In this document: piece after piece, positions 17,925-45,609 of the stretch
Position numbering within the stretch: the first letter of the stretch is position 1
Layout of the letters: the number at the start of each line of letters is the position of its first letter
DNA from: Pseudoxanthomonas sp. X-1
GTDB lineage: Bacteria > Pseudomonadota > Gammaproteobacteria > Xanthomonadales > Xanthomonadaceae
Direction: 5' to 3'
Length of the DNA stretch: 64,000 bases
Assembly: GCF_020042665.1 (NCBI RefSeq)
Contig: NZ_CP083376.1
Location: 3,446,001 to 3,510,000, forward strand
Made by a program: the position numbers and the translations under genes
Notes under the pieces: generated by a model
What the model saw: only the letters and a program-made list of their open reading frames with translations
What the model was told of the DNA's origin: nothing
Database searches by the model: none

Positions 17925-18369
17925 GCTCTGCGCCATTCGCCCGAAGGCCTGACCAGCGAAACGGACTTCGCCAAGCAGCCGCGACCGGCCAGACACGGTC
18001 TCTCGGCTCGGCGGTGCCTAGAAAGCCGACGCTTGAATGAGAAAGGCCTGACTGCGCCATCGCCGCTGCGGACCGTCCAGGATCGCTCTCTACCCAACCG
18101 GCCAGATCGAGGCCAGCTGAGGGAATCAGGACTCCTTCCGATCTTCGACCCGAAGTCCTACGACATCACGCGCGCGGCAGCGGGCCGGCGGGCGGTGGCC
18201 GCGCCCAGCGAGGCAGCACGCCGAGCGCCCGAATCAGGGCAGGACGCCCTGATCGAGGGGTAAGCGGCCGCCGCCCGCCGGCCTGCTGCCCACACGAAGC
18301 CAGAGCGCGCTCGCCGGGCTCCGACGATCAAGGGAAGAAGCTCTTGCGGCAAAGCAGGCAGGCGATCGA
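17925..18369. other. Intergenic stretch with the first copy of a large palindromic repeat
   Basis: This 445-base stretch has no gene that I can support. From about 18145 it carries repeat copy A (listed separately). The remainder shows no domain-like reading frame. Confidence 0.6.
18145..18296 (+). repeat. Large intergenic stem-loop repeat, copy A
   Basis: One of three related copies in the window. Arms of 26 bases at 18177-18202 and 18264-18289 pair with two mismatches. Inside, ATCAGGGC (18233-18240) and GCCCTGAT (18246-18253) form a nested hairpin. The left flank CGACCCGAAGTCCTA and the loop block CCGAGCGCCCGAATCAGGGC are shared with the other copies. Confidence 0.9.
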
Positions 18370-18666
18370 TCAATCGCCGCTGGAAGGCGTAGCAGGCTTG
18401 GCTTCGCTGGCCGCCGGCTTGGACTCGCTGCTGCTGGACGTGCTGCTGCCCGCCCCCTCGACCAGATTGCGCTTCTTGTCGCCGTCCTTCTTGAAATCGG
18501 TCTCGTACCAGCCGCCGCCGGCCAGGCGGAACGCCGGCGCCGTCACCTGGCGCCTGACGGTCTGCGCGCCGCATTGCGGGCAGGTGTCCGGGTCGGGGTC
18601 GGAGAGCTTCTGCAGCTTGTCGAAGCTGTGGCCACAGGTGGTGCACTGGTAGGCGTAGATCGGCAT
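18370..18666 (-). CDS. FmdB-type zinc ribbon protein
   Basis: The 98-residue protein starts MPIYAYQCTTCGHSFDKLQK and has a four-cysteine zinc ribbon (C8, C11, C29, C32), which defines the FmdB/CxxC_CxxC_SSSS regulatory-protein family. A low-complexity Ser/Ala/Lys tail follows from about residue 70. The family is named after a formamidase regulator but its biochemical role is unclear. The start at 18666 matches the conserved N-terminus; the open frame upstream is not coding-like. It lies 64 bases after the antiporter gene on the same strand. Confidence 0.92.
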   Translation of the reverse strand: MPIYAYQCTTCGHSFDKLQKLSDPDPDTCPQCGAQTVRRQVTAPAFRLAGGGWYETDFKKDGDKKRNLVEGAGSSTSSSSESKPAASEAKPATPSSGD

Positions 18667-18730
18667 GGCGATGACAGGGTTGGCGTTGGCGGATTGCGGG
18701 CGCCAACGGTGGGGGCTGGAGGGCGCCGAA

Positions 18731-20032
18731 TCAAGCGGTCCGGTCGGTGCGATCGGCATCCTCGGGCAGCGGACCCGAATCCTGCGCCGGTGGCACGGCC
18801 GCGCGCACCCGCTCCTGGTGGAACTCCGAGGCGCCCGGCGCCAGCAGCGTGGCCGCCGCCCCGCCGGCCGCCGGCGCATAGCGCTCCGGCGCGGTTTCCA
18901 CCGGATCCACGTCGAACGGCGTGCGGAACACCAGCGAGGGCAGCAGCGTGGTCAGCGTCGCATACAGCAACAGCCCGCCGAACAGCGCGTCGGGGATGGC
19001 GAAGCGCTCGCGCAGCACCCCGGCCAACACCAGCGTGAAGATCAGCGTCGGCGCCAGCGCCGTGCCGATGCGCAGGCCGGTGCGCAGCGACTCGCCGAAG
19101 GTCAGCCTGCGCTGCAGCGCCAGCAGCCCGACCCGCAGCGGCAGCACCACCGCCGTCAGCGCCAGGCCCACGCCCAGCGCGCCCAGGCTCAGCGCGCCGG
19201 CGGGCACCTTGGTGCCTGAGTAGAAGAAATAGAACGGCACAAAGAAGCTGGCGAACAGGCGCACCGCGTGCAGGTTGTCGTGCGAGGCCAGCGTCGGCAT
19301 GCGCTGGCGCAGCAGCCGCGCCACCAGGCCGGTGACGAAGGCGCCGACCAGATCGTGCACGCCGATCAGGTGGGTCACGTAGGCGGCGATCACGCCGACC
19401 ATCACCAGTAGCGAGAACTCCGCGCCGGGCGAATGCGGCAGCACCCAGCGTCCCAGCGCGATGAACAGCAGCGGCAGGCCGACCAGCATGGCTAACAGGG
19501 CCAGCGTGGACCCCAGCATCTCCAGCGGCGGGCTGGCCGACTGCAGCACCACGAACAGCACCGCCAGCGCCAGCAGTTCGCCGGCGATGGCCTTGTTGGT
19601 CACCCAGAACTGCTCCTTGGTGTCCAGCCCCAGCCGCCCCAGCGTGTCGATGATGAAGCCGGTGGAAGGCGTCAGCAGGGCCAGCGCCAGCAGCGCGGCC
19701 GCCTGCCAGGACAGCCCCGCATAGCGCCAGGCCAGCCACGCCACCGCGGCCAGGCTGGCCGAGCGCGCCAGCAGATGGATCACCAGCTGCTTCCAGCCCT
19801 TGCGCAGCGCCTTGGGGTCCACCTCCAGGCCGGCGAACAGGAACAGCGAGGAGATGCCCAGCGAGGCCATCAGCGCCACCACCCCGTCCTCGACCGGCTT
19901 GCCGATGACCAGCGCGGCGACCACGCCGAAGGCCAGGCAGGTCAGCGGCGCGGGCAGCTTGAACTGCTGCAGGAACCGCGGAATGACCAGCAGCCCGAAG
20001 ATCAGCAGCAGATAGATCAGTTCTCGGCTCAC
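18731..20032 (-). CDS. CPA2-family cation:proton antiporter
   Basis: The 433-residue membrane protein has 11-13 hydrophobic segments from the first residues (LIYLLLIFGLLVIPRFLQQF) to about residue 375, with the Na+/H+ exchanger motif LFLFAGLEVD near residue 63. A short hydrophilic tail ends it; no RCK/TrkA-N nucleotide-binding domain is attached, unlike KefB/KefC. It probably exchanges sodium or potassium for protons across the inner membrane. Ion specificity cannot be told. It is divergent from the compatible-solute operon, across an interval holding a short palindrome. Confidence 0.88.
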   Translation of the reverse strand: MSRELIYLLLIFGLLVIPRFLQQFKLPAPLTCLAFGVVAALVIGKPVEDGVVALMASLGISSLFLFAGLEVDPKALRKGWKQLVIHLLARSASLAAVAWLAWRYAGLSWQAAALLALALLTPSTGFIIDTLGRLGLDTKEQFWVTNKAIAGELLALAVLFVVLQSASPPLEMLGSTLALLAMLVGLPLLFIALGRWVLPHSPGAEFSLLVMVGVIAAYVTHLIGVHDLVGAFVTGLVARLLRQRMPTLASHDNLHAVRLFASFFVPFYFFYSGTKVPAGALSLGALGVGLALTAVVLPLRVGLLALQRRLTFGESLRTGLRIGTALAPTLIFTLVLAGVLRERFAIPDALFGGLLLYATLTTLLPSLVFRTPFDVDPVETAPERYAPAAGGAAATLLAPGASEFHQERVRAAVPPAQDSGPLPEDADRTDRTA

Positions 20033-20068
20033 GACGGTCCTTTCATGGGGGTTGGACGAACATGCGCA

Positions 20069-20089
20069 GCATGCTGCAATGCAGCATGC
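20069..20089. repeat. 9-bp perfect inverted repeat in the antiporter/MFS intergenic region
   Basis: GCATGCTGC, spacer AAT, GCAGCATGC. It lies 37 bases upstream of the antiporter start and well upstream of the divergent MFS gene. It could be an operator or a short hairpin; nothing else identifies it. Confidence 0.5.
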
Positions 20090-20207
20090 CTGTCCGGGGA
20101 GATCCGGCCAAGACAGGACCGGGGCGCCCCCGGCCTGCGGCCAAGCGGCACAGGGCGGATGGGCGGTCGCGCACCTTACGCAACTTTCCCCAAAATAATC
20201 AATATGT

Positions 20208-20213
20208 TATGAT
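20208..20213 (+). promoter_or_regulatory. Probable -10 box for the MFS-ggpPS operon
   Basis: TATGAT sits in a marked AT-rich island (about 20190-20215) inside very GC-rich DNA, 42 bases before the MFS start. A convincing -35 is not seen, which would suit a stress-sigma promoter for an osmoprotectant operon, but that is inference. Confidence 0.45.
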
Positions 20214-20255
20214 GATGAAGGTGACCCGCTTCCCCTTCCCCAGAAGGTCGCGCTG

Positions 20256-21497
20256 ATGCTGCGGCTGTTCACCCTGCTGCTGGGCGTGGCCCTGCTGCTG
20301 ACCGGCGCCGGGCTGCTCGGCACCCTGCTGGCGGTGCGCGGCGCGCAGGCCGGCTTCGACGACCGCACGCTGGGTCTGGTGATGTCGTGCTACTTCGCCG
20401 GGTACTTCTTCGGCACCTTCGTCGGCCCGCCGCTGATCGGCCGCATCGGCCATATCCGCGCCTTCGCCTTCTTCACCGCGCTGGCGGCCATCGCCGTGCT
20501 GCTGCACCCGATCTGGGTCGATCCATGGGCCTGGGGCCTGCTGCGCCTGGTCACCGGCGTGGCGCTGGTCGGGCTGTACACCACCATCGAGAGCTGGCTC
20601 AACGCCGAGCCCAACCCGGGCACCCGGGCGCGGGTGTTCTCGGTCTACATGATGGTCAACCTGTCGGCGCTGGCCCTGGGGCAGGTGCTGCTGGGCTGGG
20701 GCGGCATGGCGATGGCCACGCTGTTCTCGCTGACCGCGATCCTGCTGTGCGCCTCGGTGATGCCGGTGGCGGCCACGCGCCTGCAGCAGCCCGAGGTGCC
20801 GCCGATCCAGCGCTTCAGCCTGCGCCGGCTGTACGCGCTGGCGCCGGCGGCCACGGTCGGCGCGGCGCTGTCGGGCCTGGCAATGGGCGGCTTCTGGGGC
20901 CTGTCGCCGGTGTACGCCGGCCGCATCGGTCTGGACACGCGCGGCGTGGCGCTGTTCATGCTGGCCGCGATCGCCGGCGGCGCGCTGCTGCAGGTGCCGA
21001 TCGGCCGCATCAGCGACGGCCGCGACCGCCGCCTGGCGCTGGCGCTGGCTTCGCTGGCCGCCGCCGGCGTGGCCCTGGCGATGCTGCTGCCGGCGGTGCA
21101 GGCCGACCGGCGCCTGCTGTTCGGGCTGTTCTTCCTGTTCGGCGGGCTGAGCTTCTCGCTGTACCCCTTCGCGGTGGCGCACATGCTGGACTACCTGCCG
21201 CGCGAGCACCTGCTGTCGGGCTGTTCGAGCCTGCTGCTGGTCAACGGCGTCGGCTCGGCCATCGGCCCGGCGTTGGCCGGCGGGGCGATGCAGCGTCTTG
21301 GCCCGTCCGCACTGCCGATCTACTTCGCGGTGATGCTGATCGCGCTGGCGGCCTACCTGTTCGCCCGCCTGCGCTTCCACCGCGACCGCACCTTTGCCGC
21401 GCCGTTCCGCCCGATGCTGCGCACCACGCCCGCCGCGCTGGAACTGATGCCGGAAACCGAACCCCCTACCCAACCCCAAGAGGACCGTTTTGACTGA
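20256..21497 (+). CDS. YcaD-like MFS transporter of the glucosylglycerol operon
   Basis: The 413-residue protein has about twelve transmembrane helices arranged as two groups of six, with the MFS loop segment GPPLIGRIGHIRAFAF near residue 60. It resembles the YcaD branch of MFS permeases. Its last eight bases overlap the start of ggpPS, so the two genes are translationally coupled. In Stenotrophomonas a ycaD-like gene accompanies ggpPS, and it may move glucosylglycerol or a precursor; substrate is inferred from context only. A good AGAAGG ribosome site precedes the start. Confidence 0.85.
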   Translation: MLRLFTLLLGVALLLTGAGLLGTLLAVRGAQAGFDDRTLGLVMSCYFAGYFFGTFVGPPLIGRIGHIRAFAFFTALAAIAVLLHPIWVDPWAWGLLRLVTGVALVGLYTTIESWLNAEPNPGTRARVFSVYMMVNLSALALGQVLLGWGGMAMATLFSLTAILLCASVMPVAATRLQQPEVPPIQRFSLRRLYALAPAATVGAALSGLAMGGFWGLSPVYAGRIGLDTRGVALFMLAAIAGGALLQVPIGRISDGRDRRLALALASLAAAGVALAMLLPAVQADRRLLFGLFFLFGGLSFSLYPFAVAHMLDYLPREHLLSGCSSLLLVNGVGSAIGPALAGGAMQRLGPSALPIYFAVMLIALAAYLFARLRFHRDRTFAAPFRPMLRTTPAALELMPETEPPTQPQEDRFD

Positions 21498-23850
21498 TCC
21501 GACCCAGCCCATCCGCAACACCTCACCCCGCTCCACCCAGGCCCGGCCCGATCCGCGCCTGATCCTGGCCACCGACCTGGACGGCACCTTCCTGGCCGGC
21601 AGCGCCGAGCAGCGCCACCGCCTGTACCGCCTGGTCGACCAGCATCCCGAGATCTGCCTGATCTTCATCACCGGGCGCGGCCTGGAAGCGGTGATGCCGC
21701 TGCTCACCGACCCCGCGATTCCCCGCCCCGACTATGTGGTGTGCGACGTGGGCGCCACCGTGGTCGACGGCCACACCCTGCAACCCCTGCAGCCGCTGCA
21801 GTCGAAGATCGACGGCCGCTGGCCCGGCGAATACACCGTGGCCGACGCGATGCGCGCCTTCCCCGACCTGGTCCGCCAGGACGTGCCACAGGAACGCCGC
21901 TGCTCCTATTACTGCGATCCGGCCACGCTGGCGCCGATCCGCGCCGAGCTGGAGGCCGCCGCGCACGCGCTGGGCTGCTCGGTGCTGTACTCGGCCGACC
22001 GCTACCTGGACATCCTGCCGCCGGATACCGACAAGGGCCGCACGCTCAAGGCGCTGGCCCGGCAGCTCAAGCTGCCCAGCGAGCGCGTGCTGGTGGCCGG
22101 CGACACGCTCAATGATCTGTCGATGTACATGGCCGGCTTCCGCGGCGTGTGCGTGGGCGATTCGGAGGCGGCGCTGATCGAGGCCACCGGCGCGCTGTCC
22201 GACGTGCTGCACGCCAAGGCGCCCGGCTGCGGCGGCATCCTGGAGGCCATCGCCCACTTCCGGCTGCTCGACAAGGACGACCCGTGGCTGCCGGTGGCGC
22301 GCACCGCGCCGACCGGCAAGGCGCAGCTGCTGATGGTCTACCACCGCCTGCCCTACGAGGAGGTGGTGGAAGACGGCGAGCTGGTGCGCCGCCAGCCCAG
22401 ATCGCCCAACGGCATCATTCCCTCGCTGCTGGGATTCTTCCAGGGCGGGCAGACCGGCTCGTGGGTGGCCTGGAGCATCGACGATCCCAAGCAGGGCCCG
22501 TTCCAGACCCACACCTCGGTCGATGCGCGCTATCCCAACCTCACCGCCGCGCGCGTGCCGCTGAGCAAGACCGAGGTGGACATCTTCTACAAACGCTTCA
22601 GCAAGGAAGCCTTCTGGCCGATGCTGCACGTGTTCTGGGAGCGCGCGCGCTTCCGCGAGGACGACTGGAAGGTGTTCCTCAAGGTCAACCGCAAGTTCGC
22701 CGAGGCCACCGCGACCGAGGCCGCCGAAGGGGCGACGGTGTGGATCCACGACTACAACCTGTGGATGGTGCCGGCCTACCTGCGCGAGATGCGTTCGGAT
22801 CTGAAGATCGCCTTCTTCCACCACACCTACTTCCCCTCGGCCGATGTGTTCAACGTGGTGCCGTGGCGGCGCGAGATCATCGGCAGCCTGCTGTCCTGCG
22901 ATTACGTGGGCTTCCACATCCCGCGCCAGGTGGAGAACTTCGTCGACGTGGTGCGCGGGGTGGCGCCGGTCGAGCGCGTGCGCACCGAGAGCTGCGCGCC
23001 GCGCTTCCTCACCTACGGCTGCGCGGTGGGCCTGGACACGATGACCACGCGCCTGCGCGTGGCCGGCCGCGAGGTGGCGCTGGGCGCGCACCCGGTCGGC
23101 ACCGACCTGCGCCGCATCAACCAGGTGCTGGCCAACCCGGAGGTGCGCAACAACATCTTCAAGCTGCGCCGCGAGATCGGCGCGCGCAAGCTGGTGCTCT
23201 CGGTCGAACGCCTGGACTACACCAAGGGCACGCTGGCCAAGCTGGAGGCGTTCGAGCGCCTGCTCGAATCGCATCCGCAGCTGCACAACAAGGTCACGCT
23301 GCTGATGATCTGCGTGCCGGCGGCCAAGGAGATGACGGTCTACCGCCAGCTGCAGAACGCGATCGAGCAGGCGGTCGGCCGCATCAATGGCCGCTTCGCG
23401 CGGATGGACTGGACGCCGGTGCGCTTCTTCGCCCAGGCCTTCCCGTTCGAGGAGGTGGTGGCGCACTACGCCGCCGCGCAGGTGATGTGGATCACGCCAC
23501 TGCGCGACGGGCTGAACCTGGTGGCCAAGGAGTTCGTCGCCGCCCAGGGCATCGAGGGCGGCAACGGCGTGCTGGTGCTGAGCGAGTTCGCCGGCGCGGC
23601 GGCCGAGTTGAAGGGTGCGGTGCTGACCAATCCGCACGACCAGGCCGACCTGACCGCGGCCCTGTCGCAGGCCCTGCGCATGCCCGAGGACGAGGCCGCC
23701 GGCCGCCTGCGCCAGCTCAACGACATCGTCGAGTACTACGACGTGGACCGCTGGGGCCGCGACTTCCTGGCGGCGGTGCGCGACTTCACCCCGGCATCGG
23801 CCGAGGTGCACGCGCTGGCGGCGGCGCCGAAGCGGGCCGCCCGCGCCTGA
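21490..23850 (+). CDS. ggpPS: Bifunctional glucosylglycerol-phosphate phosphatase/synthase (GgpPS)
   Basis: The 786-residue protein is a fusion. Residues about 24-265 are a HAD phosphatase with the DxD nucleophile motif DLDGT (D29, D31) and the late motif GDTLNDLSM near residue 202. Residues about 275-770 are a GT20-type glycosyltransferase with HDYNLWMVPAYLRE, FFHHTYFP, VERLDYTKG and TPLRDGLNLVAKEF. Phosphatase-first order matches GgpPS of Stenotrophomonas and Azotobacter, which makes the osmolyte glucosylglycerol from ADP-glucose and glycerol-3-phosphate. A trehalose-6-phosphate synthase/phosphatase is the alternative; OtsBA fusions usually have the synthase first. Translation starts at a TTG with AAGAGGA upstream, overlapping the MFS stop codon. 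Confidence 0.87.
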   Translation: MTDPTQPIRNTSPRSTQARPDPRLILATDLDGTFLAGSAEQRHRLYRLVDQHPEICLIFITGRGLEAVMPLLTDPAIPRPDYVVCDVGATVVDGHTLQPLQPLQSKIDGRWPGEYTVADAMRAFPDLVRQDVPQERRCSYYCDPATLAPIRAELEAAAHALGCSVLYSADRYLDILPPDTDKGRTLKALARQLKLPSERVLVAGDTLNDLSMYMAGFRGVCVGDSEAALIEATGALSDVLHAKAPGCGGILEAIAHFRLLDKDDPWLPVARTAPTGKAQLLMVYHRLPYEEVVEDGELVRRQPRSPNGIIPSLLGFFQGGQTGSWVAWSIDDPKQGPFQTHTSVDARYPNLTAARVPLSKTEVDIFYKRFSKEAFWPMLHVFWERARFREDDWKVFLKVNRKFAEATATEAAEGATVWIHDYNLWMVPAYLREMRSDLKIAFFHHTYFPSADVFNVVPWRREIIGSLLSCDYVGFHIPRQVENFVDVVRGVAPVERVRTESCAPRFLTYGCAVGLDTMTTRLRVAGREVALGAHPVGTDLRRINQVLANPEVRNNIFKLRREIGARKLVLSVERLDYTKGTLAKLEAFERLLESHPQLHNKVTLLMICVPAAKEMTVYRQLQNAIEQAVGRINGRFARMDWTPVRFFAQAFPFEEVVAHYAAAQVMWITPLRDGLNLVAKEFVAAQGIEGGNGVLVLSEFAGAAAELKGAVLTNPHDQADLTAALSQALRMPEDEAAGRLRQLNDIVEYYDVDRWGRDFLAAVRDFTPASAEVHALAAAPKRAARA

Positions 23851-23856
23851 CCCGCC

Positions 23857-23894
23857 ACGGCCGGCGCCCTGCCCGGGCGCCGGCCGTTTCCTTA
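23857..23894 (+). terminator. Strong hairpin after ggpPS
   Basis: A 13-bp perfect stem (ACGGCCGGCGCCC with GGGCGCCGGCCGT, loop TGCCC) is followed by TTTCCTT. It sits 6 bases after the ggpPS stop and very likely ends that operon. Confidence 0.8.
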
Positions 23895-24047
23895 GGGGGC
23901 CGGCGCTGTCGGCGCCTGGGCGCAAAGGACCAGGCCACGATGATCGAGGGCGCCGGCGGCGAGCTGAACCGGCTGGACTCGATACCGTTCGCCGTGCCGG
24001 CGTTCCTCCCCCGCGGCGTTACGCGTTCAACGCGGGCTGATAGGCGC

Positions 24048-25376
24048 TCAGACGAACGCGGCCATCGTCACGCGCCAGCTGGCCAGCAGCACCACCAGCA
24101 CCAGCAGGCCGCCGCGCACGCGCGGGCCGTAGTCCAGCCCGATGCGGTCGAGCTGGCGCAGGCCGACCACCACCAGCGCCAGCAGGCACAGGAAGGCGAT
24201 GCGCTGGCCGGACAGATAGGCCGTGGGCGAGAAGCCCATCATCCCCAGCGACGCCAGGCCCAGCAGCAGCAGGCCGAGCATGCGCACGGCCTCGCGCCCC
24301 TCGCGCCAGAAGCCGCAGGCCGTGGCGATGACCACGCAGCCAACGGTGAACGCCGACCATGCGCTCAGCGCGTACAGCCGCGCATTCCACACCGCCTCGC
24401 CATCCAGGCGCAGCGGCAGGGCGTGCTGCAGCGGCTCGCCCGGCACGTGCGGAAGAAACAGCAGCATCTGCAGCAGCGAGATCGCCAGCACGCCCGCCAG
24501 CACGGCCTTGAGCCAGCGCGCCAGCGGCGCGCGCCACAGCAGCACCAGGGCCAGCACGGTGACGGTGCCGAACAGATAATTGCGCGGGTCGGTCATGGCA
24601 CGCTCGATCAACCCTAAGCCGATGCGCAGCTTCTCCAGCACGTCCAGGTCGGCGAAGTTGGGAAAGCGCATGCCGGTCTCCTCGCGGAACCGTTCGACAT
24701 TGCCCGGCGCGCTGAGCGCGAAGGCCGCGTTGGCGCACAGCAGCACCAGCTGCGCCCAGTCCCAGCCCCGCGCACGGCGCTGCCGCGCGCGCCACGCGCA
24801 CAGCCCGAGCGTCAGCGGCACCAGGACCAGCGCCAGCTGATCGCAGTACGCCGCCAGTGCCGCGGCCAGACACGCGGCAAGCCGCGCCGGCCAGCGATGC
24901 GGGCCCTCCTCGACCAACGGCACCAGACTCCACACGCCCAGCGCCACCGGCCACAGATAGTTGAGCGAGCCGGTCAGCCACCAGCACGCCTCGTAGATCG
25001 CCTGCGGCGTCATCAGCATCACCAGCGCGAACACTACCCCCGTCGCGCCCGGCCACGACCAGCGCGTGCCGGGCCGCGCCAGCCGCGCCAGGCCCACGCA
25101 GAGCAGCGCCATCACCACCGCGTTGCAGGCGCGCCACAGCCCGGGCGCATGGACGATGGTCACCAGCAGCGCCTCGATCGGCAGCCGCCCGGTCCAGGTG
25201 TGGTAGCGGTGCACCAGGTAGTCGCGCAGCGTGTAGGTGTCCAGCATGCCGGCGAAGTAGCTGTCGTCGGCCACCCGTGCCGAGCTGATGCCGAAGGCGT
25301 GGATCGAGACGATGGACGCCAGCATCCAGGCCACGCCCAGCCATGCCCAGCGCAAGTGCAGACGGGGCGTGCTCAC
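24048..25376 (-). CDS. Polytopic membrane protein, DUF6056-like
   Basis: The 442-residue protein has about ten to twelve hydrophobic segments. The segment WWLTGSLNYLWPVALGVW around residue 120 and a periplasmic-looking loop with DDSYFAGMLDTYTLRDYLVHR around residues 37-57 resemble DUF6056 proteins, a group of GT-C-like membrane proteins often linked to glycan glucosylation or O-antigen modification. No catalytic motif can be named. Its ATG overlaps the stop of the upstream small gene (ATGA at 25373-25376), so the two are translationally coupled and probably work together. Specific function is unknown. Confidence 0.72.
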   Translation of the reverse strand: MSTPRLHLRWAWLGVAWMLASIVSIHAFGISSARVADDSYFAGMLDTYTLRDYLVHRYHTWTGRLPIEALLVTIVHAPGLWRACNAVVMALLCVGLARLARPGTRWSWPGATGVVFALVMLMTPQAIYEACWWLTGSLNYLWPVALGVWSLVPLVEEGPHRWPARLAACLAAALAAYCDQLALVLVPLTLGLCAWRARQRRARGWDWAQLVLLCANAAFALSAPGNVERFREETGMRFPNFADLDVLEKLRIGLGLIERAMTDPRNYLFGTVTVLALVLLWRAPLARWLKAVLAGVLAISLLQMLLFLPHVPGEPLQHALPLRLDGEAVWNARLYALSAWSAFTVGCVVIATACGFWREGREAVRMLGLLLLGLASLGMMGFSPTAYLSGQRIAFLCLLALVVVGLRQLDRIGLDYGPRVRGGLLVLVVLLASWRVTMAAFV

Positions 25377-25885: not shown

Positions 25886-25920
25886 GCCGTCGTGCCCGCT
25901 GCCCGTGCCAGATGCCCGGC

Positions 25921-25926
25921 TACAAT
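25921..25926 (+). promoter_or_regulatory. -10 box immediately before uup (possible leaderless mRNA)
   Basis: TACAAT ends only 6 bases before the ATG of uup at 25933. A start point about 7 bases after the box would coincide with the A of the ATG, and no ribosome-binding site is visible, so a leaderless transcript is likely. Confidence 0.5.
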
Positions 25927-25932
25927 GGTCGC

Positions 25933-35473: not shown

Positions 35474-35560
35474 CTTCGCCGAGGGGCGCTGCGACCCAGG
35501 CCGTGCAAGAGCACGCGCCACGGGCCAGGCTCGGTGATCCACCTGTGCAACGGCGCCCGG
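35474..35560 (+). ncRNA. S-adenosylhomocysteine (SAH) riboswitch
   Basis: The leader of ahcY contains the conserved blocks of the SAH aptamer in order: CCGAGGGGCGCTGCGACCC, a variable hairpin, GCCAGGCTCGG and AACGGCGCCCGG. The CCGAG...CTCGG segments form stem P1, and the GGGCGC...GCGCCC pairing gives the pseudoknot-forming element. Known SAH riboswitches in proteobacteria turn on ahcY when toxic SAH builds up. It lies 43 bases upstream of the ahcY start, where it can control access to the GGAG ribosome site. Confidence 0.93.
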
Positions 35561-35603
35561 CAACCGCGAGCTTTCCACGCCCGCCCTTGACCGGAGCAAC
35601 ACC

Positions 35604-37046
<1,443 letters not shown>

Positions 37047-37100: not shown

Positions 37101-37142
37101 CATTTGGCGGCTGGGCAGCGCGCTCGCCCGACCCGGGTCGCC

Positions 37143-37162: not shown

Positions 37163-37193
37163 TTGCCGCAAGGTCACCGCCGGAAGCCCTCCC

Positions 37194-37478: not shown

Positions 37479-37479
37479 C

Positions 37480-37779
37480 ATGGCGCACGTGGAGTTCCTG
37501 CCCCGCGTGTACCAGGACCTGCAGCGCATCGTCAGCCATCTGGAACAGCACGAGGTCGAGCACGTCCCGGACCGCCTGGGCGAGCTTGTCAGTGCGTTCG
37601 ACGTGCTCACGGACAACCCCTTGATCGGCCGCCCCATCCACGGGGATTTGAGGGAGCTGGTGATCGGGCGCAGCGCCCGTGGCTACGTCGCGCTGTACCA
37701 GTACGCAGCCGCCTTGGAGACCGTGTTCGTCCTCGGAGTTCGCGCACAGCGCGAATCGGGTTACCCAAGCGATGCGTGA
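37480..37779 (+). CDS. RelE/ParE superfamily toxin
   Basis: The 99-residue protein has the RelE/ParE fold pattern: an N-terminal strand (HVEFLPRVYQDLQRIVSHL), two helices, and a beta-sheet with DNPLIGRPIHGDLRELVIGRSARGYVALYQY. Basic and aromatic residues (R, Y) lie where ParE-type toxins have them. The C-terminal VFVLGVRAQRESGY is typical of ParE. It follows the antitoxin by a single base, so the two are co-translated. Whether it targets gyrase (ParE) or mRNA (RelE) cannot be told; the sequence leans to ParE. Confidence 0.88.
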   Translation: MAHVEFLPRVYQDLQRIVSHLEQHEVEHVPDRLGELVSAFDVLTDNPLIGRPIHGDLRELVIGRSARGYVALYQYAAALETVFVLGVRAQRESGYPSDA

Positions 37780-38145
37780 AACCGGGTCTGACGAACGCCG
37801 CTTTCATCGCGTCGCGCAACCTAGGCCTCGACATGGCGGAGTGCACACAGGTCCACGACTGGATTCTCTGCCCTGGCCGGCGAACGAACCAGAACTCTCT
37901 TCGACCCGAAGCCATAGGACTTAACGCGCGAAGCAGCGGTCCGGCGGGCGGTGGCCGCGACGAGCGAGGCAGGATGCCGAGCGCCCGAATCAGGGCAGGA
38001 TGCCCTGATTGAGGGAAAAGCGGCCACCGCCCGCCGGACCGCTGCCCTTCCGAAGTGAACCGCAACACGCACACACCGCGTTCCCTCGATCAAGCGAGAA
38101 GAGCCGCTTCGAAAAAACCGGCCCGCCATCATCGACAATGCGCCC
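37780..38145. other. Intergenic stretch with the second copy of the large repeat
   Basis: This 366-base interval has no gene I can support. It holds repeat copy B at about 37900-38056. Short frames over it encode only the repeat-derived peptide. Confidence 0.6.
37900..38056 (+). repeat. Large intergenic stem-loop repeat, copy B (perfect arms)
   Basis: The 26-base arms at 37933-37958 and 38020-38045 are perfect reverse complements. The nested hairpin AATCAGGGCA (37988-37997) with TGCCCTGATT (38001-38010) is also perfect, with loop GGA. The flanks TCGACCCGAAG and TTCCGAAG match copies A and C. It lies between the toxin gene and ybaK. Confidence 0.93.
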
Positions 38146-38619: not shown

Positions 38620-38653
38620 GCGAGCCGCGCCGCCGAAGCGAGCGCACGCCGCC

Positions 38654-40078
38654 TCAGAACGCCACCTGGAAGCGCGTGTTGAACGTATAACCTTCGTCCT
38701 GCCCCCGATAGGCGCCGCTGCGGTTGTCGGTCTGCCAGAAGACCGCATCGAGCATGACGCGCGCATAGTCGTTGAGGTACCAGTTGGTGCCCACCGTCCA
38801 GGCATGCCCGGTCCCGCCCGTGGGCAGCTCGTCGTAGTCCACATCCTCGTAGCGCGCGCGCAGCTCCCAGGCCCCGCGCCCGCCCGACGTGACCGGATCC
38901 TGCACCTTGACCTTGCCCCAGGTGCCGCTCTTGGCCGTATAGGCCGGGCTGGCCCCGGACAGGAACACACCGCCGGACACCGTCCAGGCCGAATGATCCA
39001 CGTCGTAGCGGCCCGCACTGCCCACCCCGCCGATGCGGCGCGTGCCCCACTCGCCGCTCACCCAGCCCGGCCCGAAGAAACCCGCCGCTTCCACGCCATA
39101 GGCCGTGCCACGCTCGGCACCGGCCAGCGCGCCCGGCGCGATCTTGACCAGATCGTTGAAGTGGCCCGAGATCGCCGAGCTGCGCAGCACACCGGTGGCC
39201 CCGGCAGGAATGTCCTCGTGGAACGCCCACGCCCCCAGATGCACCGTGGCGGCCTCGCTCAGCAGCGGGTTCCAGTGCGCGCGCGCGGCTACGGTCAGGC
39301 TGTCGTTGTCCTCGCCGGCGTTGTTGAGATCGTTGCCCGCCACCGACAGGCTGGCGTGCCAGCCCTGCCCGAACACCCGCTCGGTCAGCCCCACGCCGAA
39401 CAGGCCGCGCTGGGGCAGGATCAGCGTGCCGACCACGTTGCGATCGGCGAACGGCGTGTTGGTCGTGCTGCTGGAACCATCCAGGCCGCGGTCGTTGAGC
39501 CGGTTGCCGATGCTCAGCTCGGCCTGGGTGCCGAACAGGCGGTGATCGACGCTGGCGTAGACCGACTTCCAGGCCACCTCGTTGTCGGCGAAGTCGCCCT
39601 CCACCACATAGCCCAGCCGGCCATAGCTGCCCTCGGCGCCCAGGCGCACCGAGCGGATCTCGGTGCCGGAGATGTTGCGGTCGGCGAAGTCCGAGCCGCC
39701 CGTGCTGGAGGCGTCCACGAACAACCGACCGCGCGGCCGGAAGGTGAAGCTGCCATCGGCGTTGGAGAACTGCGGCGCGCCCTTGGACCAGCTGACCTTG
39801 GGCGCCTTGGACTGGGCGGCCTCGACCTTGGCCACGCGCGCCTCCAGCGCCGGGTCCGCGGCGGCCGGCGCCGGTGCGACCGCCGCGGTGCTCGTGCTGC
39901 CGCCGCCTTCGACCGCCTTCAGGCGCGCCTCCAGTTGCTCGATCTTCAGGGCCTGCGCCTGCACCAGGCGGGTGAGTTCTGCCTGGCTCAGCGCCTGCGC
40001 GCCGGCCTGGCCGGTGGTCAGCAACAGGCCGATCGCCACCGTCAGCGCTGCCTTGGGCAGCACGTGGATTCGCATCAT
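38654..40078 (-). CDS. OprO/OprP-type porin
   Basis: The 474-residue precursor has a signal peptide (about 1-26, ending AGA) and a short coiled-coil trimerisation segment (SQAELTRLVQAQALKIEQLEARLKAVE). A long beta-barrel region with alternating aromatic strands, ending in F (FNTRFQVAF), completes it as in the Porin_O_P family of anion-selective outer membrane porins. GAGAGAG precedes the start, where ATGATG allows 40078 or 40075. It is the last gene of the ABC-transporter/GalD operon, 116 bases after the permease, so it probably admits the same anionic substrate. Confidence 0.9.
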   Translation of the reverse strand: MMRIHVLPKAALTVAIGLLLTTGQAGAQALSQAELTRLVQAQALKIEQLEARLKAVEGGGSTSTAAVAPAPAAADPALEARVAKVEAAQSKAPKVSWSKGAPQFSNADGSFTFRPRGRLFVDASSTGGSDFADRNISGTEIRSVRLGAEGSYGRLGYVVEGDFADNEVAWKSVYASVDHRLFGTQAELSIGNRLNDRGLDGSSSTTNTPFADRNVVGTLILPQRGLFGVGLTERVFGQGWHASLSVAGNDLNNAGEDNDSLTVAARAHWNPLLSEAATVHLGAWAFHEDIPAGATGVLRSSAISGHFNDLVKIAPGALAGAERGTAYGVEAAGFFGPGWVSGEWGTRRIGGVGSAGRYDVDHSAWTVSGGVFLSGASPAYTAKSGTWGKVKVQDPVTSGGRGAWELRARYEDVDYDELPTGGTGHAWTVGTNWYLNDYARVMLDAVFWQTDNRSGAYRGQDEGYTFNTRFQVAF

Positions 40079-40194
40079 GGGAAAGCTCTCTCTCGGGCAC
40101 GGCGACGCAGGCGCGTCGGCGGCCACACGGGGATGGTGCGGGGGATGGGTCCAGCGCGGTGCCGGCTAGAGCGCCGGCACCGTGACGCGTGCGA

Positions 40195-40971
40195 TCAGCT
40201 GGTCGCGCCCTGCTGGGCGTTGGGACGCCAGGTGATCACGCGGTTCTCGACGATGTCGAGCAAGGCATCGATGATCAGCACGAAGGCGGCCAGGATGATG
40301 ATGCCGGCGAACACGCCGACCGCATTGAAATTGCCTTCGGCCTGCGCGATCAGATAGCCCAGGCCCGCCGAGGCGCCCAGATACTCGCCGATGATCGCGC
40401 CGACCACCGCGAAGCCCACCGAGGTGCGCAGCGAGGACAGGATCCAGCTGGCCGCCGCCGGGAAGTACACATGCCGCAGCAGATCCCCGCGCCCGGCGCC
40501 GAGGATGCGCGCATTGGCCAGCACGGTGGGATTGACCTCGCGCACGCCCTGCATCGCGTTGAAGAAGGTGGTGAAGAACACCAGCGTCACCGCCAGCGCC
40601 ACCTTCGACCACAGCCCCAGGCCCAGCCACAGCACGAAGATCGGCGCCAGCACCACGCGCGGGATCGCGTTGAAGCCCTTGATGAACGGGTCCAGGATCC
40701 GCGCCGACCGCCGGCTCAGCCCCAGCCACACACCACCGGCCACGCCCAGCGCGGTGCCGATCAGATAGCCCAGCGCGGTCTCGGTCAGGGTGATGTAGAC
40801 GTGCTGGTAGAACGAGGTGTCCGACAGCCAGGTCCACATCTGCCGCGCGATGCCCGACGGCGCCGGGAAGAAGAATGGATCGATCAGCCCGCTGGCCACG
40901 CCGGCTTCCCAGCCGCCGAACAGCACGACGATCAGGACGATCTGGATCAGTTTGTCAGTCTTGGCGTGCAT
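40195..40971 (-). CDS. ABC transporter permease, NitT/TauT (SsuC-like) family
   Basis: The 258-residue inner-membrane protein has about six transmembrane helices. The permease loop EAA motif is visible as AAASWILSSLRTSVGFAVVGAIIGEYLGA at about residues 175-205. It belongs to the BPD_transp_1 group of nitrate, sulfonate and taurine systems. It overlaps the ATPase gene by 17 bases, a sign of coupled translation. The start at 40971 gives the usual N-terminal helix (LIQIVLIVVLFGGWEAGVA). Confidence 0.93.
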   Translation of the reverse strand: MHAKTDKLIQIVLIVVLFGGWEAGVASGLIDPFFFPAPSGIARQMWTWLSDTSFYQHVYITLTETALGYLIGTALGVAGGVWLGLSRRSARILDPFIKGFNAIPRVVLAPIFVLWLGLGLWSKVALAVTLVFFTTFFNAMQGVREVNPTVLANARILGAGRGDLLRHVYFPAAASWILSSLRTSVGFAVVGAIIGEYLGASAGLGYLIAQAEGNFNAVGVFAGIIILAAFVLIIDALLDIVENRVITWRPNAQQGATS

Positions 40972-41788
40972 AGCTCTTCTCCACTTCGCCGCGCAGGCAG
41001 GCCCAGATGTCGCGGTACAGGTCGGTGAATCGTTGATCCAGCTTGATCTCGGCCACGTTGCGCGGGCGCTCCAGGTCGACATCGAAGCTGCGCACCACGC
41101 GGCTGGCCGGCCCCGCTGAGAGCACCACGACGCGGTCGCCCAGCGCGATGGCCTCTTCCAGGTCGTGGGTGATCAGCACGACCGAGCGGCGGTCTTCCTG
41201 CCACAGCCGCAGCAGCTCGTTCTGCATCAGGTGGCGGGTGTGGATGTCGAGCGCGGAGAACGGCTCGTCCATCAGGATCACCTTGGGCTCGACGATCAGC
41301 GCCTGCGCCATCTGCACGCGCTTGCGCTGGCCGCCGGAGAGCTGGTGCGGATACCGATGCTCGAAGCCGGACAGGCCCACCTTGGCCAGCCAGGCGCGCG
41401 CGCGTTCCTCGCGCTCCTTGGCCGCCATGCCGCGGAAGCGCAGGCCGAGCTCGACGTTCTGCAGCGCGGTCTTCCACGGCAGCAGCGCGTCCTGCTGGAA
41501 CAGGTAGCCCACCGACTTCTGCACGCCCTTGACCGGCACGCCGTCGATCGTGATGCCGCCGCTGGCCGGCGTCAGCAGGCCGGCCACCGCGTTGAGCACG
41601 GTGCTCTTGCCGCAGCCGGTCGGCCCGACGATGGCGACGAACTCGCCGTTGCCCACCTGCAGGTCGACCTCGCGCACCGCGGTGAAGTCGCCGAAGGACA
41701 TGGTCACCTTGTCGATGGCGACCATGGTCTCGGCGGGATGGAACTGGGGTGCGCCATTGAGGCTGCGCACACTGGCGTTGAGCGCCAT
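40955..41788 (-). CDS. ABC transporter ATP-binding protein, NitT/TauT family
   Basis: The 277-residue ATPase has Walker A GPTGCGKST at residues 55-63, Q-loop QQDALLPWKT, signature LSGGQRKR, Walker B VILMDEPFSALD and the H-loop ITHD. It resembles SsuB/TauB. It lies 15 bases after the substrate-binding lipoprotein gene and overlaps the permease gene, so the three form a complete importer. The substrate is not fixed by sequence; context points to an organic acid. Confidence 0.94.
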   Translation of the reverse strand: MALNASVRSLNGAPQFHPAETMVAIDKVTMSFGDFTAVREVDLQVGNGEFVAIVGPTGCGKSTVLNAVAGLLTPASGGITIDGVPVKGVQKSVGYLFQQDALLPWKTALQNVELGLRFRGMAAKEREERARAWLAKVGLSGFEHRYPHQLSGGQRKRVQMAQALIVEPKVILMDEPFSALDIHTRHLMQNELLRLWQEDRRSVVLITHDLEEAIALGDRVVVLSAGPASRVVRSFDVDLERPRNVAEIKLDQRFTDLYRDIWACLRGEVEKSYARQD

Positions 41789-41803
41789 CAGGGAATCCTC
41801 CGG

Positions 41804-42880
41804 TTATTGCCTGGCCGCGACGGTGGCCGATGCGCCACCTCCGGCGGCCAGGGCACGATCGACGAACGCGTTGGTATAGGTCTTGGACAGGTCCACCTTG
41901 GCCTGGGCCACGCCGTCGTTGAACTCGCTCAGGACGGTCAGCGGCGTGGTCAGGTCCTCGGGCACGAAGCGCCCGTCGCGGGTGAAGATGGCGCGCGCGT
42001 TCTCCACCGCCTTGGCGTAGGTGGCGCGGTCGCCGGAGACGTAGCTGTCCGGCAGCGCGGCCACGATCTGCTCGCCGCTGTGATCGGCGATGAAGGCCAG
42101 CGCACGCTGCTCGGCCCGCACGATCTTCTCCACCGCCTGCGGCCGCTGCTGCAGGAACGCCGACTGCGCGTACAGCACCGAGGTCGGGTACAGCCCGCCG
42201 TAGACCTGGCGCGCGCCGGCGTCGCTGCGCGCATCGATCAGGATCTTGCCGACCTTGCGTTCGGCGATCAGCGTGGCGGCCGGATCGTAGTTGACCAGCA
42301 GGTCGACCTTGCCCTGTTCCAGCGCGGCCACCGCGGCGGCGCCGGAGCCCACGCCGATCAGCGACACGGCCGTCTCGGGAATCTTGTTGCGCGCCAGGTA
42401 GTGGCGGACGAAGAAGTCCGACGAGGAACCCGGCGCGGTGATGCCGACCTTCATGCCCTGGATCGTCTGCGGCCTGGCCGGATCGAAGGTGCCGTCGTTG
42501 CGCCCGGCCAGCACCAGACCCGAATTTCGCGAGAGCAGGATGAAGGCGGTGACGTCCTTGCGCTTGGCCTGCATCTGGATGGTGTGGTCGTAGAAGCCCA
42601 CCGCCACATCGGTCGAACCGGCGACCAGCGCCTGCAGCACCTTCGAGCCGCCTTGGGCGAAGTTCTCGGTCTTGACCTGGAGGCCTTCGTCCTTGAAGTA
42701 GCCCTGGGCATCGGCCACGAAGAACGGCAGGTTGTTGAGATTGTAGGAGCCGACGCTGATGCGCACCGGCGCATCGTCGGCGCCCGGCGCGGCGCCGGAG
42801 GCGTGGCTGGCGTCCTTGCCGCAGGCGGACAGGACGAGGGCGGCGGCGACCAGGGTGGCCGCCATGAGTGGCTTGTACAT
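41804..42880 (-). CDS. ABC transporter substrate-binding lipoprotein, NMT1/SsuA-like
   Basis: The 358-residue precursor has a lipobox LSAC at residues 17-20. A periplasmic binding-protein domain of the NMT1/TauA/SsuA type follows, with VRISVGSYNLNNLPFFVADAQGYFKDEGLQV at its start and GSTDVAVGFYDHTIQMQAKRKDV further on. GGGAGGGA precedes the start. It is 61 bases after the GalD-like gene and 15 bases before the ATPase gene. The ligand is not known. Confidence 0.93.
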   Translation of the reverse strand: MYKPLMAATLVAAALVLSACGKDASHASGAAPGADDAPVRISVGSYNLNNLPFFVADAQGYFKDEGLQVKTENFAQGGSKVLQALVAGSTDVAVGFYDHTIQMQAKRKDVTAFILLSRNSGLVLAGRNDGTFDPARPQTIQGMKVGITAPGSSSDFFVRHYLARNKIPETAVSLIGVGSGAAAVAALEQGKVDLLVNYDPAATLIAERKVGKILIDARSDAGARQVYGGLYPTSVLYAQSAFLQQRPQAVEKIVRAEQRALAFIADHSGEQIVAALPDSYVSGDRATYAKAVENARAIFTRDGRFVPEDLTTPLTVLSEFNDGVAQAKVDLSKTYTNAFVDRALAAGGGASATVAARQ

Positions 42881-42941
42881 CGATCCCTCCCAGGATGTAT
42901 GCGATGCGAAACGTGGACCGGGTCGGACCCGGCGAATCAGG

Positions 42942-44048
42942 TCATGCCGCTGAGGTCCATTCGGCAGCGACGGAAGTGCGTGGCGAGGGGGCGAACACCC
43001 GGCCTTCGAACAGACGCCGCGCGGTCCGCACGACGCTGGCGACGACCGCGTCGCTGCCCGCGGCGCGGCTGAGCCCGACGGCCAGGCTGCCACTGGGATG
43101 CTCAAGGGTAATCGTGGTCGGCAGCGGCAGATATCCCACCATGGTGTGGGCCAGCGTGCCCTCGGTGACCACCGCCGTGGCCAGCCCCACCGCACCGGTG
43201 ATGGCCAGCGCGGTGTGGCACTGATGCGGCATGAAGTAGCGGACCTGCAGGTGGCCGCCGTGCTGCGGCGCAGCAAGCAGCACCGGTTTGGGAATCACGC
43301 GGTCGGCGGCGTCGGCGATGCCCATGCGTCGCCCTGCCTCGACGCGGATGGACTCGATCCGGGTCAGCAGCGCGGCATCGGCGTTGAGGCGGGCCGGCGT
43401 CTCGTCGCCGCGCAGGCCCAGCGCCTCGGCGCGGATCAGCACCAGCGGCATGGCGCAGTCGACCAGGCTCACCTCGACCTCGTCGATCCACTCGCTGGCG
43501 CGCCCGCTCGGCAGCAGCTTGCCGGTGCGCGCGCCAGCGGCATCCAGGAAAGCCAGCGAGATCGGCGCGGCGGTGCCGGGCGCGCCGGCGATGCGGGTAT
43601 CGCCCAGATAGGCCACCTGGCCGTTGGGCGTCTCCACCGTGGCCACGATCACCTTGCCGGTGTTGACGTTGTGGATGCGCACCTGGGTGCGCGGATGCCG
43701 CGCCGGCACCAGGCCGCGCTCGATCGCATACGGCCCCACCGCCGCCAGCATGTTGCCGCAGTTGGGCGCGGTATCGACCACGCGCTGGTCCACGCGCACC
43801 TGGGCGAACAGGTAATCGACATCGGCGTCGGCGCGGCTGGCGCGATCGATGATCGCGACCTTGCTGGTCAGCGCGTTGCCGCCGCCGATGCCGTCGATCT
43901 GCAGCGGATGGCCCGAGCCCATCACCTCCAGCAGCAGGCGGTCGCGCTCGGCCGCATCGGCAGGCAGGTCCGAGGCGAGGAAGAACGGCCCCTTGGAGGT
44001 GCCGCCGCGCATCAGGACACAGGGAACGCTGAGCAGGTCGTTGGACAT
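42942..44048 (-). CDS. galD: PrpF/GalD-family isomerase, probable 4-oxalomesaconate tautomerase
   Basis: The 368-residue protein belongs to the PrpF family, which shifts double bonds in unsaturated tricarboxylates. Motifs include VPCVLMRGGTSKGPFFLASDLP at the N-terminus, GIGGGNALTSKVAII, TAPNCGNMLAAVGPYAIERGLV (conserved cysteine) and PHQCHTALAITGAVGLA with a second cysteine. It is closest to GalD of gallate catabolism. The gene starts a five-gene operon with an ABC importer and a porin and faces a divergent LysR gene. Other PrpF members use 2-methylaconitate or trans-aconitate, so the exact substrate is open; no ring-cleavage genes are in this window. Confidence 0.85.
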   Translation of the reverse strand: MSNDLLSVPCVLMRGGTSKGPFFLASDLPADAAERDRLLLEVMGSGHPLQIDGIGGGNALTSKVAIIDRASRADADVDYLFAQVRVDQRVVDTAPNCGNMLAAVGPYAIERGLVPARHPRTQVRIHNVNTGKVIVATVETPNGQVAYLGDTRIAGAPGTAAPISLAFLDAAGARTGKLLPSGRASEWIDEVEVSLVDCAMPLVLIRAEALGLRGDETPARLNADAALLTRIESIRVEAGRRMGIADAADRVIPKPVLLAAPQHGGHLQVRYFMPHQCHTALAITGAVGLATAVVTEGTLAHTMVGYLPLPTTITLEHPSGSLAVGLSRAAGSDAVVASVVRTARRLFEGRVFAPSPRTSVAAEWTSAA

Positions 44049-44156
44049 GGGCGTGGTAGATTCATACCAGTTCCGGATTAATGATCCGGTGTGATGCGAT
44101 CCTGGCATGGCCACGATTGATCTGTGAATTGCTATTTTTCGGTAGATTGATCCGAT

Positions 44157-45077
44157 ATGAGCATGAATTGCGAAATCCTGGACCTGCGCGCCTTCCTGCT
44201 GGTGGCCGAGTCGCGCAGCTTCCACCGCGCGGCCGAGACCCTGCACGTCTCCCAGCCCGCCCTGAGCCGGCGCATCCAGAAACTCGAGCAGGCGATCGGC
44301 TCGCCGCTGCTCGAGCGCACCACGCGCAGCGTGTCCACCACGGCCGTGGGCGAGAACCTGCTGCCGCTGGTGCGACGCATGCTGGAGGAGTTCGACGGCT
44401 CGCTGTTCGCCCAACGCGGCGATCACGTCGGCCGCCAGATCACCATCGCCTGCCTGCCCACCGCGGCGTTCTACTTCCTGCCCAGCGTGATGGCGCGCTT
44501 CCATGCCGAGCACCCCAACGTGCGCTTCCGCATCCTCGACGTGCCGGCCACCGAGGGATTGCAGGCGGTGGAGCGCGGCGAGGTCGAGTTCGGTATCAAC
44601 TTCATGGGCGCCTCCGATCCCAACCTGAGCTTCGAGGTGCTGGTGGAGGATCCCTTCGTGCTCGCCTGCCGGCGCGATCACCCGCTGGCCAAGAAGCGCA
44701 AGATCGCCTGGAGCGACCTGGAGAAGCACCAGCTGATCACCGTGCATCGCACCAGCGGCAACCGCACCCTGCTCGACGGCGCGCTCGCACGCGAGAACCT
44801 GAAGCTGCGCTGGTTCTACGAGGTCACCCACCTGTCGACCTCGCTGGGCATGGTCGAGGCCGGCATCGGCGTGTCGGTGCTGCCGCGCATGGCCACGCCG
44901 CAGGGCGAACACCCCACCCTGGTCACGCGCCCGATCGACAGCCCGGTGGTCTCGCGCACCATCGGCATCGTGCGCCGGAACAACGCGGCGCTCTCGCCGA
45001 TGGCCGAGCGCTTCCTGCAGATGCTGCAGAAGCAGTGGAAGCCCGGCGCGCGCACGACCGAGCGCACGCGCGGCTAG
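44157..45077 (+). CDS. LysR-family transcriptional regulator
   Basis: The 306-residue protein has an N-terminal winged helix-turn-helix (LRAFLLVAESRSFHRAAETL then QPALSRRIQKLEQAIGSPLLER) and a C-terminal effector-binding domain. It is divergent from the GalD/ABC/porin operon with a 108-base AT-rich gap that holds three TGATC elements (TGATCCG at 44087 and 44148, TGATCTG at 44118). LysR proteins commonly activate the facing operon when a substrate binds; that role is inferred. An ATG at 44163 is an alternative start. Confidence 0.92.
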   Translation: MSMNCEILDLRAFLLVAESRSFHRAAETLHVSQPALSRRIQKLEQAIGSPLLERTTRSVSTTAVGENLLPLVRRMLEEFDGSLFAQRGDHVGRQITIACLPTAAFYFLPSVMARFHAEHPNVRFRILDVPATEGLQAVERGEVEFGINFMGASDPNLSFEVLVEDPFVLACRRDHPLAKKRKIAWSDLEKHQLITVHRTSGNRTLLDGALARENLKLRWFYEVTHLSTSLGMVEAGIGVSVLPRMATPQGEHPTLVTRPIDSPVVSRTIGIVRRNNAALSPMAERFLQMLQKQWKPGARTTERTRG

Positions 45078-45264
45078 CGCAGCACGCGCAACGCAAACAG
45101 CAAGGTTCTTCGCCGAAGTGGGAGGGCGTGGCCCGATCGATGCGATGCGATGCAGACGGGCAAAAGCACACTTTGCCGACCAGCCTCGCCCCTGCCAGGC
45201 GCGGCTCCTCGGCTCGGTCCACCCATGACCGACTTTCGGGTTGACCGTGCCTCGTATTTCCGGT

Positions 45265-45284
45265 GGAGCCGCCATGGCGGCTCC
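45265..45284. repeat. REP palindrome
   Basis: GGAGCCGCCATGGCGGCTCC is a perfect 20-base palindrome. The same half-sites form the nested repeat at 32480-32565. This is a common xanthomonad REP core. Confidence 0.8.
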
Positions 45285-45348
45285 CACAGGATTGGGCTGG
45301 CACGCTTCGCAAGGACGAATCACAGCCTCGCGCCGTCGTCGGTGCTCT

Positions 45349-45385
45349 GCCCCCACCCTTTCGCCGCAGGCGAAGGGGTGGGGGC
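45349..45385. repeat. 17-bp inverted repeat (C/G-rich hairpin)
   Basis: The arms GCCCCCACCCTTTCGCC (45349-45365) and GGCGAAGGGGTGGGGGC (45369-45385) pair with one mismatch around loop GCA. It looks like a second, unrelated dispersed hairpin repeat. Confidence 0.7.
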
Positions 45386-45457
45386 CTCAAGTCGATGCCC
45401 TTCCGACACTGATCGCGCTGTGCGCATGGGCAAGGGTCTAGAACGCCCCCCCCCCCG

Positions 45458-45609
45458 CAAACCGAAGTCCTGTGACCTGACGCGCGAGGCAGCGGTCCGG
45501 CGGGCGGTGGTCACGCCTAGCGAGGCATGATGCCGAGCGCCCGAATCAGGGCACGGTGCCCTGATTGAGGGATAAGCGGCCACCGCCCGCTGGACCGCTG
45601 CCCCTCCGA
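45458..45609 (+). repeat. Large intergenic stem-loop repeat, copy C
   Basis: The arms at 45489-45514 and 45576-45601 pair with three mismatches near their inner ends. The nested element AATCAGGGCAC (45544-45554) with GTGCCCTGATT (45556-45566) is perfect, one base pair longer than in copy B. Flanks ACCGAAGTCCT and CCTCCGAAG are as in the other copies. Confidence 0.92.

Follow-up and report, generated by a model that had tools for sequence, protein, structure and literature searches.

Copies, parts and fold of the repeat

The DNA analysed here, called the window throughout, is a stretch of 64,000 nucleotides from Pseudoxanthomonas sp. X-1 (contig NZ_CP083376.1, positions 3,446,001 to 3,510,000) and holds three copies of a structured intergenic repeat, referred to below as the element, at window positions 18150-18299 (copy A), 37906-38055 (copy B) and 45462-45611 (copy C), all on the + strand. 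The genes on either side of copy A (DUF3011 and zinc-ribbon) are convergent, those around copy B (ParE-like and tRNA-editing-domain) are in tandem, with the ParE-toxin-like frame at 37480-37779 on the + strand immediately upstream of the copy, and those around copy C (LysR-type regulator and TonB receptor) are convergent; genes were called with our own codon-usage script, without annotation. An intrinsic-terminator-like hairpin, AAAA-GGCCTCTTGCGAGGCC-TTTT, stands on the - strand at 45677-45700, between copy C and the TonB-receptor gene. A preliminary description of this DNA had reported the three copies as lying in one orientation. The copies are real and their coordinates are refined here, and the common orientation holds within the window but not genome-wide, where 26 copies lie on the + strand and 37 on the - strand. 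A 20-base block is identical in copies A, B and C and has no match elsewhere in the window at up to three mismatches (chance expectation 0.01).

The core of copy A, 150 bp as in copies B and C, is composed of a leader (1-27), an outer stem, two hairpins termed H1 and H2, and a CCGAAG-like 3' end. Its outer stem arms occupy 18177-18202 (5') and 18264-18289 (3') and enclose H1 at 18208-18226 (loop AGCAC, GGA lost) and H2 at 18228-18259 (loop AGGAC, GGA retained). In copy B, the top-scoring copy genome-wide, the arms at 37933-37958 and 38020-38045 form a perfect stem of 26 bp, as had been described, H1 (37964-37982) and H2 (37984-38015) both have the loop AGGAT and tandem G.A, and the predicted fold is -103.8 kcal/mol (z -8.7). 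Copy C has arms at 45489-45514 and 45576-45601, H1 at 45520-45538 (loop ATGAT) and H2 at 45540-45571 (loop ACGGT), GGA being lost from both loops. The preliminary description had placed a single inner hairpin within the outer arms; there are two, of which it had seen H2 only, and it had also overlooked the GGA loops, an inverted partner of the element and the likeness to the TwoAYGGAY RNA family (both described below). The stem-tip letters that it had read as a paired change, CA/TG in copy B and CAC/GTG in copy C, sit in the H2 loop (AGGAT and ACGGT, respectively). Paired differences do exist but lie elsewhere, at columns 92/116, 49/133, 47/137 and 44/139 of alignment A7, which are changed on both sides.

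Alignment A7 comprises the 110 of 126 own-lineage copies that score at least 100. Its best structure has 26 pairs in the outer stem, which closes a junction with H1 and H2 (a three-way junction). H1 reads GC GA GGC-AGGAN-GCC GA GC, and both hairpins normally end in AGGA loops and carry tandem G.A steps, the GGA loops of the consensus being spaced 26 nt apart. Two-sided changes were found in 16 of the 42 pairs (121 cells, alignment cells not being equivalent to independent events), all five covariation measures beat 500 of 500 shuffles, and sliding the partner arm lowered pairing from 95% to 33-44%. The clearest covarying pair, columns 92/116, is A-U in 47 copies, G-C in 40 and C-G in 7. The alternative inner fold given by RNAalifold was rejected, having no covariation excess. 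Conservation extends to unpaired letters: the AGGA columns of H1 and H2 average 97% identity, against 77% in the leader, and A114, C56 and A58 are kept in 110, 107 and 105 of the 110 copies, respectively. Both GGA loops are present in 92 copies, one in 16 and none in 2.

Number, placement and spread within the genus

Copies were located genome-wide by three routes (DNA search, pattern search and covariance model), and counts were made after merging overlapping and reverse-strand matches. The X-1 genome (G000) carries at least 63 copies, a lower bound that counts partial copies too (nhmmer, E 1e-5) and was obtained from stretches retrieved around search matches; 53 are near full length (score >=100). 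The pattern search gave 45 matches and its reversed control 0. At least 63 genomic copies are more than chance and more than local duplication would account for. Copies within this genome are alike, with a mean divergence of 16% (31 copies). Two other genomes of the genus, G004 and G016, hold 52 copies and, in the fetched part, 11 copies. Matches at E 1e-5 were found in 5 of 38 genus genomes, namely G000, G004, G016 and G052 plus a single weak match in G043, and the only named species in an exact-pattern scan, from which the X-1 genome was possibly left out, were P. winnipegensis NML 130738 and P. composti GSS15. Along the X-1 chromosome, the - strand carries 25 of the 34 copies of the first 2.5 Mb and the + strand 17 of the other 29, a skew possibly tied to replication direction.

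The 63 copies of the X-1 genome lie in convergent (37), tandem (15 and 10) and divergent (1) gene contexts. Among intergenic regions, 36 of the 62 that contain copies are convergent, versus 24 of the 264 that do not (p 7e-16), and 1 of 62 versus 89 of 264 are divergent (p 7e-9). Downstream of the core is a loosely conserved tail ending near GAGAAGAACC, often followed by the terminator A-tract and hairpin of the facing gene. Terminators were counted for copies scoring >=80: 16 of 41 facing gene ends in X-1 and 17 of 35 in G004 have a T-run at a distance of 36-60 nt from the end of the core, and a terminator was detected at 27 of the 41 facing ends versus 121 of 712 other gene ends (p 3e-11), the counting methods being slightly different in that the background ends came from all three genomes and were taken over a set length of 300 nt, which was not the case for the 41 ends compared.

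Spacing upstream of the core is loose and is occupied by repeat modules, and the extragenic sites of the element lie in mosaic repeat islands. One of these modules is an inverted relative of the element: in searches with R3 at E 0.01, 13 of the 63 X-1 cores have an opposite-strand partner with the 5' ends facing (divergent order), 10 of them within 20 nt and 3 at 131-248 nt, and one has a same-strand partner. The divergent pair order recurs in L087, L090, L093, L307 and L308 from other genomes; L309, whose two copies are convergent and separated by 775 nt, is an exception, and L086 has three copies. A partner-type unit (R3, 55.8 bits) without an adjacent main-type core was found at 12275-12424 (+) of X-1 locus L277. 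Two different palindromic repeats occupy the same islands as the element, one of GTGGGAGCCGCCATGGCGGC...CCCAC type, present at 45263-45288 of the window and in many X-1 tiles, and one reading CCCTGGGTTCCCGCGTTCGCGGGAACGACG, also in tiles. Elsewhere in the window are an S-adenosylhomocysteine (SAH) riboswitch (RF01057, 52.5 bits) at 35475-35565 (+) and a tRNA gene (RF00005) at 906-978 (-).

Searches with Y1_Tnp gave no match in X-1, one each in G004 and G016 and four in G052, and RVT_1 (PF00078) gave none in X-1 and one each in G004 and G016. Mobilisation by a resident enzyme of the IS200 or REP-associated tyrosine transposase (RAYT) type is thus weakened, if not dismissed, by the missing Y1_Tnp match in X-1; the same applies to an origin from a group IIC intron or retron with a resident enzyme, given the missing RVT_1 match, a past enzyme being still compatible. 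Phage or plasmid origin is similarly weakened or dismissed, since copy B had 0 matches at E 1e-5 among 50,697 phage and 72,556 plasmid records.

Both flanks of 44 X-1 copies (score >=80) were found in G004 stretches, and for 31 of these G004 has a single copy at the corresponding site. Intergenic DNA around shared sites is often rearranged, and several apparently empty sites are partial deletions. One clean occupied/empty pair, L224/L188, has TTTTTGT flanking the insert on both sides; its copy is degenerate and deletion is possible. Owing to the rearranged flanks, the partial deletions and this single ambiguous pair, no target duplication is claimed. At the 31 shared sites core divergence averages 0.115, against 0.103 at fourfold sites of nearby genes, leader divergence ranges from 0 to 0.81, and the copy at the same G004 site is the nearest relative in only 7 of 31 cases; these comparisons of sequence suggest replacement or gene conversion at shared sites. 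A pair of copies in the same orientation brackets a stretch of about 3 kb at L215 of G004 (8289-11524), which contains two frames absent from the X-1 site; the frames resemble a polysaccharide flippase and a glycosyltransferase, as judged by eye, and the stretch was considered as a candidate composite element.

The preliminary description had left the choice between a mobile element, a structured RNA and an mRNA 3' end. Dispersal, covariation and placement at gene 3' ends, which bear on these options, are all borne out: a covariance-model search recovered many dispersed copies (at least 63 in the genome), covariation is strong within and across genera, and the copies are neither few nor reducible to duplication of a single locus. 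A co-occurring RAYT was not recovered from X-1, with 0 Y1_Tnp and 0 reverse transcriptase matches, and target-site duplications came down to one doubtful case.

Relatives beyond the genus and known RNA families

Scanning the order with the fold model gave matches in 17 of 398 genomes, spread over 13 of 98 genera, and scanning the class with a model built from divergent members gave matches in 2 of 369 genomes, X-1 and another of the same family. Seven candidates per genome were scored in the order scan and 8 in the class scan under stricter filters, and these counts are therefore lower bounds; the class sample included few genomes of the order. In alignment A9 (39 rows, fitted to the model, as was alignment A8), the outer 5' arms average 52% identity, yet pairing is preserved in 96.5% of cells. 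Two-sided changes affect 38 of the 42 pairs across genera (353 cells), and covariation scores 0.632, versus 0.156 when shuffled and at most 0.097 when slid. Relatives in other genera keep the pairing while the letters of the outer stem differ. Model-free single-sequence folds of 27 of 29 loci (L312 and L329 left out) reproduced the long stem and the hairpins in most cases, with exceptions that include the partial loci and, at L311, H2. Among the 31 divergent rows (the 39 minus 8 main-type rows of own-lineage genomes), GGA is retained in H1 in 28, in H2 in 29 and in both in 27, with the loop forms ATGGAT, AGGGAT and AGGAN. Strict AYGGAY is found in H1 of 17 of the 39 A9 rows, H2 being mostly AGGAU, and tandem G.A in H2 of 33 and H1 of 13, most other H1 having paired letters instead.

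The outer stem of A9, read on the GGA strand, contains 65 G.T and 10 A.C, with G.T the commoner of the two in 32 rows and A.C in 1. A fold equally important on both strands would give like numbers of the two, and the excess of G.T thus shows selection on one strand; it does not distinguish RNA from single-stranded DNA.

TwoAYGGAY (RF01731) is described as a predicted CsrA binder with tandem G.A and little conservation in its outer stem (PMC4333381), and its table entries are from human gut, gamma-Proteobacteria and Clostridiales (PMC2864571). The element resembles it in its multi-stem fold, two hairpins with GGA loops (H1 often AYGGAY), tandem G.A and long outer stem with little sequence conservation, the tandem G.A being compared by its presence in a stem. 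Unlike TwoAYGGAY, the element has an H2 loop that is mostly AGGAU, some sixty interspersed copies, including divergent pairs, and an occurrence in Xanthomonadales. No window copy matched RF01731 at the cut-off of 43 bits. The model matches L314 along its full length at 37.8 bits (E 8.5e-5 for 251 bases), and one locus in G054, 77 bases from an R3 match on the other strand, exceeds the cut-off at 50.9 bits; this locus is the partner in another genus. G016 has 12 weak matches (E 0.007 to 0.95), of which 7 are 16-54 bases from element copies, on the other strand; the model thus reaches several inverted partners below its cut-off. RF01731 shares Rfam clan CL00106 with RsmW and RsmY.

CAGGA(N)G is the repeat motif of CsrB. 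Like CsrB/CsrC and RsmX/Y/Z, the element has stable hairpins with CAGGA(N)G loops; unlike them, it is distributed over many loci with two sites each instead of forming one RNA with many sites, and the corresponding Rfam families gave no match of the element at cut-off. CsrA is present in 37 of the 38 genus genomes, X-1 included. A second, weak CsrA-like match (28.5 bits, cut-off 27) was recorded at G000:C1:617906-618022. RsmU of Xanthomonas campestris is described as an RsmA-sequestering RNA derived from a 3' untranslated region and containing GGA motifs (PMC7694677); it differs from the element, in a comparison made by description only, in being a single locus reportedly confined to Xanthomonas (PMC7694677). 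Repetitive extragenic palindromic (REP) sequences are described as palindromes of 20-40 bp with a GTAG or CGTC tag (PMC3733652), and the unit of the element is far larger. With REPs, bacterial interspersed mosaic elements (BIMEs) and REPINs (hairpins formed by paired REPs) the element shares high copy number, extragenic and palindromic character, inverted pairs and 3'-end location; it differs from them in its unit of about 150 bp with an inner junction and in its genome without a detected RAYT-type protein.

Possible roles of the element

The copies, their fold and covariation, the cross-genus strand asymmetry, the GGA loops, the location, the inverted partner and the TwoAYGGAY-type architecture are direct observations; action as RNA and not as single-stranded DNA, RsmA binding, a sponge effect and past mobility are inferred. 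Our tentative reading of them, which we rate a little short of an even chance, is that of a REPIN-like amplified element acting as an RNA able to bind RsmA. A stem of about 26 bp and free sequence would support the conserved three-way junction, two hairpins would expose the GGA loops, and function would reside on one strand. Transcription from the upstream gene, or read-through, would cross a sense-oriented copy and the RNA would fold, so that the two GGA loops of one copy could hold a dimer of RsmA/CsrA; a GGA spacing of about 26 nt would suit the dimeric protein. The roughly sixty scattered copies would constitute a dispersed reservoir of RsmA sites, and the units would propagate and be maintained in the manner of REPINs, between gene 3' ends and in some cases as divergent inverted pairs, by means of a mobiliser not recognised in the genome.

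The same observations could be produced by non-autonomous mobile DNA of REP/REPIN type with no RNA role, its hairpin being read as single-stranded DNA by a lost or unrecognised transposase and its GGA loops and tandem G.A serving as recognition marks; we regard this as a real possibility, though not a probable one. The high copy number and lineage-specific amplification fit such DNA, as do the divergent inverted pairs (13 of 63 cores), the extragenic sites in mosaic repeat islands, the sharp distance of the 3' end from terminator T-tracts and the one occupied/empty pair with TTTTTGT flanking the insert on both sides, and an excess of G.T over A.C is expected for single-stranded DNA too. Set against this are the absence of Y1_Tnp and RVT_1 matches in X-1, the absence of copy B from the phage and plasmid records searched, and the conservation of the stem across genera in pairing only and not in letters. 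Mobile DNA accounts for spread and placement but would make the resemblance to an RNA motif family and to CsrA-site loops a coincidence.

A role at mRNA 3' ends or as a back-up terminator, comparable to that of NEMIS/ERIC or BIME sequences, would have the long hairpin block exonucleases, serve as a target of RNase III or halt convergent transcription. Such a role suits the very stable fold and a location between gene 3' ends and seldom between promoters, but a barrier needs the stem alone, which leaves the 97% AGGA loops, the junction letters and the cross-genus retention unexplained, and orientation relative to genes is not strong; we consider it unlikely. Chance, or duplication of a single locus without selection on the fold, would agree with the likeness of copies within the genome and is hardly credible in view of the covariation within and across genera and the conserved unpaired letters.

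Several observations count against an RsmA-binding RNA and temper our preference for it. Both GGA loops are intact in only one window copy, B, with one kept in A and none in C, so that two of the three belong to the exceptions. The strand asymmetry is modest in the own lineage (G.T 105 to A.C 63; by pairs 18 to 15) and in X-1 alone is 55 to 36 (p 0.06), and A9, being fitted to the model, favours the model's own pairs. RF01731 finds nothing in X-1 at E <=1, its single weak G004 match and 5 of the 12 in G016 are not beside element copies, and the main-type copies of those two genomes are themselves not matched. The sense excess among copies in tandem contexts is no more than weak (15 to 10 in X-1), and many copies lie beyond the terminators of neighbouring genes, so that transcription may be low. 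The absence of the element from 33 of 38 genus genomes (E 1e-5) speaks against an essential role. RsmU with altered GGA motifs is described as still binding RsmA in vitro (PMC7694677), and GGA loops by themselves are thus no proof of binding mode.

RNA action through RsmA and mobility as DNA may both be true together. A more specific proposal, in which a selfish repeat of REPIN type amplified a CsrA/RsmA-binding RNA module at gene 3' ends and thereby gave the genome a dispersed RsmA sponge with around a hundred GGA sites, perhaps replacing a CsrB-type RNA in this lineage, appears doubtful to us at present. The element joins interspersed bacterial repeats with CsrA-type RNA modules, two subjects previously kept apart, and RF01731 gets a large, strongly covarying branch for comparison. 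Provided that the copies are transcribed and do bind RsmA, repeat copy number would tune a global regulator, and the genus would gain a testable candidate RsmA antagonist.

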